A stretch of 64,000 nucleotides of DNA, from NCBI RefSeq assembly GCF_013408925.1, contig NZ_JACCAB010000001.1, positions 930,001 through 994,000 on the forward strand, read 5' to 3'. The notes beneath the pieces are model-generated. The model was given only the letters and a program-made list of their open reading frames with translations, searched no databases and was not told where the DNA came from. This document shows, piece after piece, positions 59,758 through 62,508 of the stretch. The position numbers were made by a program, and so were the translations under genes. Positions within the stretch are counted from its first letter, which is position 1. Each line of letters starts with the position of its first letter. This DNA comes from Pedococcus badiiscoriae. GTDB taxonomy: Bacteria; Actinomycetota; Actinomycetes; Actinomycetales; Dermatophilaceae.

Positions 59758-60291
59758 ATGGCAAGCATCAACGACCTCCCCGCCGGCACCTGGACCGTCG
59801 ACGCCTCGCACAGCGAGATCGGCTTCGTGGCCCGTCACCTCATGGTCACCAAGGTCCGCGGCCAGTTCAAGGAGTTCGAGGGCACCGTCAAGGTCGGCGA
59901 CGACATCACCGACTCGCAGGTCACCGCCGTGGCGCAGATCGCCTCTGTCGACACCGGCTCCGCGGACCGCGACGCCCACCTCAAGTCCGGCGACTTCTTC
60001 GACGCCGAGACCAACCCCACCATGAGCTTCACCTCGACCCAGGTCACGCCTGACTCGCTCACCGGCGACCTGACGATCAAGGGTGTGACCAAGCCGGTCA
60101 CGTTCGACCTGGAGTTCACCGGTCTGGCCACCGACCCGTGGGGCAACGAGAAGGCCGGCTTCGAGGCCACCGCCGACATCAACCGCAAGGACTGGGACCT
60201 CGGCTGGAACGTCGCCCTCGAGGGTGGCGGCGTGCTCGTCTCCGAGAAGGTCAAGCTCAACCTGGACATCCAGCTCACCAAGGCTGCCTGA
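59758..60291 (+). CDS. YceI family lipid-binding protein
   Basis: A 177-residue lipocalin-like YceI protein. It begins LPAGTWTVDASHSEIGFVAR and continues with HLMVTKVRGQFKEFEGTVKV and KSGDFFDAETNPTMSF, all typical. No signal peptide is present, so unlike E. coli YceI it is probably cytoplasmic. YceI proteins bind polyprenyl lipids; polyisoprenoid quinone precursors would suit this region, though that is inference. ATG at 59758 is supported by AGGAG six to seven bases upstream. It pairs with the divergent MarR regulator. Confidence 0.9.
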   Translation: MASINDLPAGTWTVDASHSEIGFVARHLMVTKVRGQFKEFEGTVKVGDDITDSQVTAVAQIASVDTGSADRDAHLKSGDFFDAETNPTMSFTSTQVTPDSLTGDLTIKGVTKPVTFDLEFTGLATDPWGNEKAGFEATADINRKDWDLGWNVALEGGGVLVSEKVKLNLDIQLTKAA

Positions 60292-60315: not shown

Positions 60316-60385
60316 GCAATACGGCGGTTGCGTCCGCTTCCGCCCAGCAACAGCTGGGCGGAACGGGGCGCAACCGCCGTTTTGC
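60316..60385. repeat. 70-bp palindrome, copy 1
   Basis: Arms of 33 bases (60316-60348 and 60353-60385) pair at 29 of 33 positions around a 4-base loop (AACA). The ends read GCAATACGGC and GCCGTTTTGC. The left arm differs from that of copy 2 at only 3 of 33 positions. It begins 24 bases after the yceI stop and ends 97 bases before the preferred AbiEi start. Confidence 0.9.
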
Positions 60386-60482
60386 GTGGGGTATGTCCAC
60401 AGGTCCGGTCCCCGGCGCGGTCCGTCCCCAGGCCCTCGTGCCGGCCAGCTCGTCGTTCCCTTGCGCAGTCCAGGGTGCCAAG

Positions 60483-61427
60483 GTGCAGACCTCCGTCGTC
60501 CCGGCCATCCCTGACTCGAGGGTGCGCGCCCTCCTCAGCGCCCAGTCCGGAGTCGTCGCGAGCGCGCAGCTCGCCTCCCTCGGCATCTCCGGCAGCGACC
60601 TGCGGCGCTGGCTTCGCGAGGGCGCGCTGGTCCGCCTTCGTCGTGGGGCGTTCGTCGAGGGAGGGGTGTGGCACCACTCGAGACAGGATGAGCGGTACCG
60701 GCTCACCGTCATGTCGGTGATGCGCTCGAGGAGCACGGAAGACACCGCCAGTCATCACTCCGCACTCGCCCTCCACGGACTCCCGCTCTGGCACGTCGAC
60801 CGAGCGTTGGTTGTCCTGGCCGCAGACGTCGCGGAGACGACCACGTGGAACGGGCTTCGTCTCATGCGGTTGCGGGCACTGGTGGCGCCGACCCGCTTCC
60901 TGGGGCTGCCCCTTCTCGACGTTGCGGACGCAGTCGTCACCACCGCCTCGGTGTCCTATGAAGGCGGCCTCGTCGCCGCGGACGCAGCAACGCACAGCGA
61001 GGCGTGCACCACGGAGGACCTTCATGAAGCAGCCGAGCGACTGCTGGGCGGCCTCAGGGGCCGACGACGGGTGCGTTCGATGCTTGCCGATGTCGATCCT
61101 TTGTGCGAGTCGCCCGGAGAGAGTCGCACTCGAATCATCCTCCGCGCACTCGATGTGCCGGTGCGGTCCCAGGCCGAGATCCGGGACCGACTCGGCGACG
61201 TCGTGGCACGCGTCGACTTCCTCGTCGGCGAGCGGTGCGTGATCGAGTTCGACGGCGCCGTCAAGTACGGCGGTGCTGAGGGGCGGGAAGCGCTGGTGCG
61301 CGAGAAGCTGCGCGAGGACCGGCTTCGCGAGCTTGGCTACATCGTCATCCGCCTGACATGGGACGACCTGACCCGCCCACAGGTGCTCCTCGCTCGAATC
61401 CGCGTCGCCCTCAGCATGCGCGACTGA
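60483..61427 (+). CDS. AbiEi-type winged helix and DUF559 (Vsr-like) nuclease domain protein
   Basis: A 314-residue protein. Residues 13-60 match the N-terminal winged helix of type IV antitoxin AbiEi (RVRALLSAQSGVVASAQL, GSDLRRWLREGALVRLRRGA). The C-terminus is a DUF559, PD-(D/E)XK/Vsr-like nuclease: Glu213 in ESRTRIIL, Asp245 in ARVDFLV, Glu255 and Asp257 in VIEFDG and Lys261 in KYGG. Possible catalytic residues are therefore intact. GTG at 60483 follows CAGGGT plus six bases; ATG at 60393 is a possible longer start. No AbiEii-type toxin is adjacent. The gene is bracketed by two 70-bp palindromes. Confidence 0.8.
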   Translation: MQTSVVPAIPDSRVRALLSAQSGVVASAQLASLGISGSDLRRWLREGALVRLRRGAFVEGGVWHHSRQDERYRLTVMSVMRSRSTEDTASHHSALALHGLPLWHVDRALVVLAADVAETTTWNGLRLMRLRALVAPTRFLGLPLLDVADAVVTTASVSYEGGLVAADAATHSEACTTEDLHEAAERLLGGLRGRRRVRSMLADVDPLCESPGESRTRIILRALDVPVRSQAEIRDRLGDVVARVDFLVGERCVIEFDGAVKYGGAEGREALVREKLREDRLRELGYIVIRLTWDDLTRPQVLLARIRVALSMRD

Positions 61428-61431
61428 CCCC

Positions 61432-61501
61432 GCAAAACGGCAGTTGCGTCCACTTCCGCCCAGCAATAGTTGGGCGGAAGCGGACGCAACTGCCGTTTTG
61501 C
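61432..61501. repeat. 70-bp palindrome, copy 2
   Basis: Arms of 33 bases (61432-61464 and 61469-61501) pair at 31 of 33 positions around AATA. The ends read GCAAAACGGC and GCCGTTTTGC, so each strand would give a hairpin followed by a short T run. It starts four bases after the AbiEi/DUF559 stop and ends 11 bases before the hemB stop, in a convergent gap. Confidence 0.92.
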
Positions 61502-61512
61502 CGGGCGACGGG

Positions 61513-62508
61513 TCAGGGGCGCAGCAGCCGGGCGGCGTCGACCGCGTAGTAGGTCAGGATGACCTGGGCCCCGGCGCGGCGGATGTTGAGCAGGGACTCC
61601 ATCATCGCCCGGTCGCGGTCGATCCAGCCGTTGGCCGCGGCGGCCTCCACCATCGAGTACTCGCCCGAGATCTGGTAGGCCGCCACCGGCACGGTCGACA
61701 TGGCCGCGGCAGCCGCCACGATGTCGAGGTGGGGCGTCGCCGGCTTGACCATGACCATGTCGGCGCCCTCGGCGATGTCGAGCTCGAGCTCGCGCAGCGC
61801 CTCGGTCGCGTTGGCCGGGTCCTGCTGATAGGTCGCGCGGTCTCCGACGAGGGAGGACTGGACCGCCTCGCGGAACGGGCCGTAGAGACCAGAGGTGTAC
61901 TTCGCGGCATACGCGAGGATGACGGTGTCGGTGAAGCCCTCGGCGTCCAGCGCGTCGCGGACGTAGGCGACCTGGCCGTCCATCATCCCGGACAGCCCCA
62001 GCACGTGGGCGCCGGCGCGGGCCTGCGCGAGGCCCATCGCGGCATACCGCTCGAGGGTGGCGTCGTTGTGCACCCGGCCCGAGGCGTCCAGGACGCCGCA
62101 GTGGCCGTGGTCGGTGAACTCGTCGAGGCACAGGTCGGCCATCACGACGAGTCGGTCACCCACTGCGTCGACGACGGCGCGCAGGGCCACGTTGAGGATG
62201 CCGTCGGGGTCGTCGGCGCCGGAGCCCACCGCGTCCTTGACCGACGGCACGCCGAACAGCATGAGACCGCCCACCCCGGCGTCCGCGGCTTCGCGGGCGG
62301 CGTCGACGAGCGACTCCAGCGTGTGCTGGACGACGCGCGGCATCGTCGAGATGGGCTGGGGGGACTCGATCCCCTCGCGGACGAAGATCGGCAGCACGAG
62401 CTCAGCAGGATCGAGGCGGGTCTCGGCCACCAGACGCCTCATGGCCGCCGACTGACGCAGCCGACGGGGCCGGATCACCGGCCCCGTCGGGTGGGTGTGG
62501 TCAGCCAT
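61513..62508 (-). CDS. hemB: Delta-aminolevulinic acid dehydratase (porphobilinogen synthase)
   Basis: A 331-residue enzyme joining two 5-aminolevulinate molecules to porphobilinogen. The metal site cysteines are in [19 protein letters not shown]. The Schiff-base lysines are in [16 protein letters not shown] and [14 protein letters not shown]. The N-terminal [20 protein letters not shown] is typical. ATG at 62508 is nine bases after the hemD stop, so hemD and hemB form one operon. Confidence 0.96.

Follow-up and report, generated by a model that had tools for sequence, protein, structure and literature searches.

Among associations of a nuclease with dispersed palindromes, the best known is that of the repetitive extragenic palindromes (REPs) and the REP-associated tyrosine transposases (RAYTs), in which a single-copy transposase gene lies between two REPs and further REPs are dispersed in the genome (PMC2817692, PMC3116915). 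What maintains the association has been called an open question (PMC3116915), and a parallel layout built on an unrelated enzyme would provide an independent test of it. AbiEi antitoxins are known to bind inverted repeats (PMC7319586), and nucleases of the EDxHD/Vsr type have been described in homing genes (PMC12350094). Here, we describe a locus in a 64-kb stretch (the window; bases 930001-994000) of a 3.39-Mb single-contig Pedococcus genome (G000), where a gene encoding an AbiEi-like half joined to a Vsr/EDxHD-type nuclease stands between yceI and hemB, with one full palindrome on each side. We lean towards the view that gene and palindromes form a REP/RAYT-like element based on an unrelated enzyme, and in sequence comparison they look like a mobile unit. 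The original prediction for this locus had proposed a hairpin-associated single-gene element with a parallel in REP/RAYT, and the proposal is supported by a recurring layout, locus-specific palindromes, dispersed solo copies, and loss or replacement in sister species.

Comparison of flanking sequences showed that, in some two thirds of the relatives tested, the same palindrome or terminal inverted repeat occurs on both sides of the AbiEi-Vsr gene. Homologues (E<=1e-20) were present in 95 of the 119 family genomes sampled. The family set consisted of 73 loci (four from the window's own genome, 29 plus 40 from the homologue list), of which three with short flanks were dropped, leaving 70; ORF (open reading frame) calls were heuristic throughout. 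Strong hairpins (score >=15, within 200 bp) were located upstream of 18 of these genes, downstream of 23 and on both sides of 11, against 2, 7 and 0, respectively, among 207 other ORFs at these loci. With the threshold set at the 99th percentile of 3000 cross-locus flank pairs, upstream and downstream flanks matched each other at 46 of the 70 loci. The same was true of 18 of 24 loci in a class-wide set (26 taken, two dropped for short flanks, and at least one, L168, from the window's own family), and of 43 of 78 named loci versus 0 of 47 control ORFs at the same threshold. The named loci were the best 80 of 307 relatives from an alignment-based profile scan, less two that were dropped; a scan of the genome contigs with the window protein alone found no relative. 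These three sets overlap, and removal of identical protein segments gave a non-redundant set of 136 loci, 130 of them usable, in which 89 exceeded the 99th percentile (1.3 expected). The threshold here was 36, lower than in the other sets, and the 95th percentile of control ORFs was 36.1, so that about 5% of ordinary genes would pass. The flanks of the 89 loci matched in both orientations, as palindromes do, in 61 cases, in inverted orientation only in 20 and in direct orientation only in eight.

The sequence of the palindromes varies by locus and by lineage, with GCAAAACGG types in Pedococcus and CAACACACCG types in several other genera, whilst some class-level loci have terminal repeats starting AAATGATCA(C/T)GTT. 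In clear cases, the palindromes are about 40-85 bp long; the upstream one lies about 60-130 bp ahead of the start codon at many loci, and at several class-level loci a single gene lies between terminal inverted repeats. Copies of the CAACACACCG type were found in 11 of the 119 genomes, where no more than seven candidates were scored in each, and a copy adjoins a homologue in six of the 11 (G016, G113, G076, G028, G033 and, if the gene end is extrapolated, G039), an adjacency that is weak on its own because homologues are common. At L150 and L159, the inverted similarity continues beyond the AAATGATCA or GAATGATCA end into apparent halves of a host hairpin, and the flanks look as if a terminator-like palindrome had received the unit in its loop. 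At L053, a repeat of roughly 60 bp, arrayed in tandem, makes up both flanks in place of single palindromes. Two paralogues in the window's own genome, L019 (about 1942868) and L018 (about 596728), have flanking repeats of their own that are unlike those of the window unit.

The two window palindromes are 88% identical across 72 nt. An inverted-repeat finder extended one to arms of 34 bp around a 4-nt loop, with four mismatches, and the other to arms of 35 bp around an 8-nt loop, with two mismatches. No other close inverted repeats in the window are as long or as well paired. The other nine of the 11 inverted-repeat pairs (>=20 bp, arms <=40 nt apart) are 20-29 nt long, overlapping and 71-83% complementary. 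The arm motif has five matches in the window at up to three mismatches (chance mean 0.60), four of which are the arms of the two palindromes themselves, with 0-1 mismatch. The arm-motif counts, the inverted-repeat survey and the control ORFs led us to reject a chance origin. Alignment of 21 copies revealed outer 17-bp arms that are near-invariant save at two positions, a partly variable interior and, as judged by eye, a consensus with the ends GCAA...TTGC. Changes in the arms tend to be paired: 29 cells were altered on both sides, compared with 19.2 in shuffles, and none of 500 shuffles reached that number, an excess that is inflated because the copies are related.

Palindromes also occur without the gene: solo copies are scattered, and nearly always intergenic, in several gene-bearing genomes. 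Our comparison set contained 11 species, with one genome each (G000, G120, G122, G072, G115, G121, G032, G119, G098, G123 and G124). G000 has five copies, two flanking the gene and three solo. In G120, where a 79% homologue occupies the same yceI-hemB site, BLAST identified 18 places, 16 of them solo, and one more was found by pattern; the same BLAST search gave three weak copies in G098 and none in the other eight species. Eighteen of the 19 solo copies of G120 and G000 are intergenic, and the nineteenth lies just beyond the serS stop codon, scored inside a heuristic ORF. For 16 of the 19, the distance to a predicted gene 3' end is at most 60 bp, and nine lie between convergent genes. Such positions favour an explanation in which the palindromes are reused long bidirectional terminators or insulators that do not move, as does the ordinary GC-rich hairpin that separates yceI from hemB in G098, G119 and G124. 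That explanation does not account for the locus-specific matched pairs around one gene family, which none of the 47 control ORFs had, for near-invariant outer arms with variable interiors, or for palindromes that change together with the gene (see below), and we regard it as improbable. On the control ORFs, the arm pattern and the joint change of gene and palindrome, the terminator alternative offered in the original prediction was rejected as the main account, although termination may be a side role of the solo copies, given that 16 of 19 lie near a gene 3' end. The same prediction had named palindromes behind unrelated genes, with no link to the nuclease gene, as a finding that would count against it. 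In part this is what was seen: solo copies do follow unrelated genes, and the three weak copies of G098 occur in a species with no close gene.

We defined a close gene as one of at least 57% identity, a cut chosen after the list had been seen; seven species have one (G000, G120, G122, G072, G115, G121 and G032) and four do not (G119, G098, G123 and G124). A pattern based on the arms alone gave 15 copies in G120, nine in G121, eight in G032, two in G000 and one each in G072 and G115; it gave none in the remaining five species, and a reversed-pattern control gave 0. The pattern, therefore, occurs in six of seven species with a close gene versus 0 of four others (hypergeometric 7/462 = 0.015), flanking copies included, among them the only copy of G072 and both of those in G000. 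Solo copies, by pattern or BLAST, were found in G120, G121, G032, G115 and G000, which have a close gene, and in G098; G072 and G122 have a close gene and no solo copy, and the G122 gene is flanked by a different palindrome type. Directly downstream of hemB in G115 (L107) is a long palindrome that stands alone and belongs to an unrelated type.

Where a locus is fixed and its neighbours are conserved, some species have the gene, some lack it and some have another version in its place. The yceI-hemB site holds the unit in G000 and G120; in G098, G119 and G124, the hairpin mentioned above takes the place of the gene, G124 having an imperfect long inverted repeat as well. In G121, the site holds a solo palindrome of the G121 type, and in the other five species yceI was not found next to hemB. 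At serS, G000 and G120 have a solo copy, no palindrome of the window kind was seen in G098, G119, G122 or G123, G072 has a possible half-palindrome remnant, and G115 and G121 have other sequence. The serS site of G032 (L259) carries two tandem palindromes with the same outer arms and unlike interiors, showing that one genome can carry two palindrome types at one place. A second Pedococcus locus holds the unit in G072, G115, G122, G032 and G121, always in the same orientation. Between G072 and G115, the flanks of this locus have 96 and 90% DNA identity, whereas the genes have 68% and the palindromes are unlike; between G115 and G122, the flanks have 91 and 83%, the gene has 83%, and the palindrome type is shared. 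The gene data reject a grouping of G072 with G115 (approximately unbiased (AU) test, 0.002; the group was named once the identities were known). In Pedococcus, these sequences showed that the palindromes change together with the gene.

Twelve species of a second genus were compared at the spot between two genes that we take to be PAC2-family and mshC-like. Six have the unit, four have a gene-less spacer of 450-542 bp and two could not be judged. The gene runs against the PAC2-family gene in four species and with it in two, so that both orientations occur in one genus. G165 and G182 have opposite orientations, yet they are mutual nearest neighbours in the gene tree (83%). In G198 and G312, the neighbour protein is 95% identical versus 57% for the gene, and in G312 and G246 the values are 84% versus 75%; across 15 pairs, the identity of the gene does not correlate with that of PAC2 (rho -0.15). 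AU tests on the gene data reject the groupings that the locus gives (4e-63, 9.6e-17 and 1.6e-49), and the unrooted gene tree places G312 and G246 with two genes added from other genera, away from the remaining four. It is the sequence conflict and the orientation flips, rather than presence and absence, that show repeated gain at this spot. Two species have hairpin-like sequences with TGATCATCAAC after the PAC2-family gene (L269 in G318, L266 in G235), where sister species hold the whole unit.

These loci also bear on the idea of a homing-type selfish gene, whose nuclease would cut an unoccupied or differently occupied allele, so that break repair copies in gene and palindromes; the palindromes would then be recognition sites or repair boundaries, and the solo copies relics. 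The nuclease type itself is one known from homing genes, as noted above. However, a whole palindrome on both flanks means that the presumed site is not disrupted by insertion, solo copies lie at many unrelated loci, and the opposite orientations of G165 and G182 are not what repair based on flanking homology would produce. We therefore consider homing unlikely.

Several results weigh against the REP/RAYT-like reading. Neither a target-site duplication nor a clean empty site was found at the yceI-hemB, serS or PAC2-mshC loci, where the flanks are too diverged to place a boundary, and strain-level empty sites are lacking because one genome per species was compared. The clean empty site sought in the original prediction was not seen at the sites compared; sister species lack or replace the unit instead. 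No genome was seen to hold two near-identical units, although no systematic search for them was made, and no plasmid record (E<=1e-15) or phage record (E<=1e-8) was matched. Matched flanks were absent at the threshold from 41 of the 130 homologous loci. Under the post hoc cut for a close gene, solo copies are found in five of the seven species that have one versus one of the four that do not (hypergeometric 91/462 = 0.20), and these counts do not prove that solo copies strictly require the gene. Outside syntenic pairs, palindrome and protein similarity correlate weakly (Mantel rho 0.21, 58 loci, 3 of 500 permutations as high); tight family-wide co-evolution of the two was considered and not upheld, being clear within Pedococcus only. 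On the PAC2 tree, presence of the unit needs one change only, so presence and absence alone do not show repeated gain, and the gene-tree conflict could also stem from ordinary homologous recombination in the flanks.

The layout at the window locus is listed below. Both palindromes are where the original prediction placed them, at the length it gave, and its measurements hold. Its description of a gene bracketed almost exactly holds for copy 2, four bases past the stop codon at 61425-61427, and is loose for copy 1, said to lie just before the start, which ends 97 bp before the GTG at 60483. The names of the two neighbouring genes are those we presume from their likeness.

Features of the window locus (positions count from the first base of the window)
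Feature	Position	Strand	Remarks
Upstream palindrome (copy 1)	60316..60385		70 bp; outer arms GCAANACGGCNGTTGCG / CGCAACNGCCGTNTTGC near-invariant across copies
AbiEi-like + Vsr/EDxHD-type nuclease gene	60483..61427	+	314 aa, GTG start
Downstream palindrome (copy 2)	61432..61501		70 bp; begins four bases past stop codon
Left neighbour, presumably YceI-like gene	59758..60291	+	Conserved flank, outside unit
Right neighbour, presumably hemB-like gene	61513..62508	-	Conserved flank, convergent, outside unit

The encoded protein has an AbiEi-like half (residues 10-205) followed by a Vsr/EDxHD-type nuclease domain (about 206-314). In a Pfam search, AbiEi_4 was above its cut-off, whereas DUF559 and MTES_1575 were below theirs. 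Sequence searches of the PDB gave weak matches, and the domain types were settled by fold search: comparison of the predicted structure model found the AbiEi fold in one half and the Vsr/EDxHD-type nuclease fold, which is clear in the model, in the other. The Foldseek matches were re-aligned with VIA-align as a second look confined to those matches. The predicted combination of winged helix and nuclease thus passes Pfam for its first part, and for the second relies on the modelled fold, the family matches being sub-threshold. The nuclease part has ten acidic or basic residues within columns invariant among 30 homologues. Neither a Y1 transposase nor any other known transposase catalytic domain was among the Pfam families at E<=1, in agreement with a model of AbiEi-like and Vsr-type halves. 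Among homologues with a named source, the closest belongs to Pedococcus dokdonensis (82% identity across 75% of the query). In a viral-structure search, the model matched phage proteins of the DUF559, restriction and homing types.

For AbiEi antitoxins, the binding sites are inverted repeats within their own promoters (PMC7319586). This property, the AbiEi fold match and the distance of the upstream palindrome from the start codon at many loci are consistent with an autoregulatory operator, in which the AbiEi-like half would use the upstream palindrome to repress its own promoter, the downstream copy being a by-product. A copy past the stop codon and dispersed solo copies at gene 3' ends are unexplained by this scheme, and no AbiEii-type toxin gene was recognized beside the gene when neighbour translations were read by eye rather than profile-searched. 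As a full account we find it quite improbable; an operator role could exist in addition to other explanations.

Under the REP/RAYT-like reading, the AbiEi-type DNA-binding half would recognize the near-invariant 17-bp arms, which is plausible in that AbiEi proteins bind inverted repeats, and the Vsr/homing-type nuclease would nick or cut at or near the palindrome or its cruciform. Repair or strand transfer would then copy the short palindrome to another intergenic site, a non-autonomous step that yields solo copies and, rarely, the whole palindrome-gene-palindrome unit would be copied in the same way. Candidate copying routes are cruciform nicking with repair, homing-like break repair and strand transfer. 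Gene 3' ends may be preferred sites, as insertion there would do little harm and the palindrome might act as a terminator.

A bolder version of this proposal, which we put forward tentatively and with slightly less than even confidence, is that the fusion of a Vsr/EDxHD nuclease with an AbiEi DNA reader is the sole enzyme of widespread actinobacterial mobile palindromes, a second and independently evolved REP/RAYT-like system. One protein per lineage would read its own palindrome 'password', spread short palindromes between genes and carry its own gene between two of them, with units displacing each other at favoured sites. The parallel with REP/RAYT points to a possible function for the many genes at present annotated as 'AbiEi antitoxin' or 'very-short-patch-repair endonuclease', and would account for some of the long palindromes scattered through actinobacterial genomes. 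If the nuclease does move DNA, it would belong to an enzyme class that is not known to drive a transposon alone. In the open-access literature, queries joining DUF559 with palindromes returned unrelated papers only, as far as titles and the beginnings of abstracts tell; nothing joined DUF559 with transposition and inverted repeats, or described very-short-patch-repair endonuclease genes flanked as mobile elements. MTES_1575 has been described as a Vsr-type nuclease in giant conflict proteins (PMC3710099), in a paper whose main text mentions neither palindromes nor DUF559.

Compared with known systems, the unit shares with insertion sequences of the DDE transposase kind and with miniature inverted-repeat transposable elements the terminal inverted repeats around a single gene, seen at several class-level loci, and the short gene-less derivatives; it differs in having no transposase domain and no target duplication found, and whole units were not seen multiplied within a genome (a point not searched systematically). 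With AbiE type IV toxin-antitoxin systems it shares the AbiEi antitoxin fold, by Pfam AbiEi_4 and by the model, but no AbiEii gene was recognized by eye alongside, and a nuclease domain is fused on. The predicted nuclease fold resembles that of EDxHD/Vsr homing endonucleases such as I-Bth0305I; in contrast to these, the gene is free-standing and intergenic and was not seen in an intron or intein, the nuclease is fused to an AbiEi-like half, and instead of an interrupted recognition site there is a full palindrome on each side, which also occurs as a solo repeat. The likeness to REP/RAYT lies in one nuclease-type gene between two cognate palindromes (89 of 130 loci with matched flanks, 41 without), in cognate copies dispersed in the intergenic DNA of the same genome, and in a single-copy gene with its own palindrome per gene lineage (PMC2817692, PMC3116915). 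REP palindromes have a GTAG or CGTC tag at one end (PMC3733652), whereas the window-type palindrome, the type inspected by eye, lacks such an end. The enzyme here combines an AbiEi-like half with a Vsr/EDxHD nuclease rather than being an HuH Y1 transposase and, as it is unrelated to RAYT, the unit is not a REP/RAYT member. The palindromes are mostly longer than REPs, and unlike REP/RAYT the units replace one another at fixed loci.
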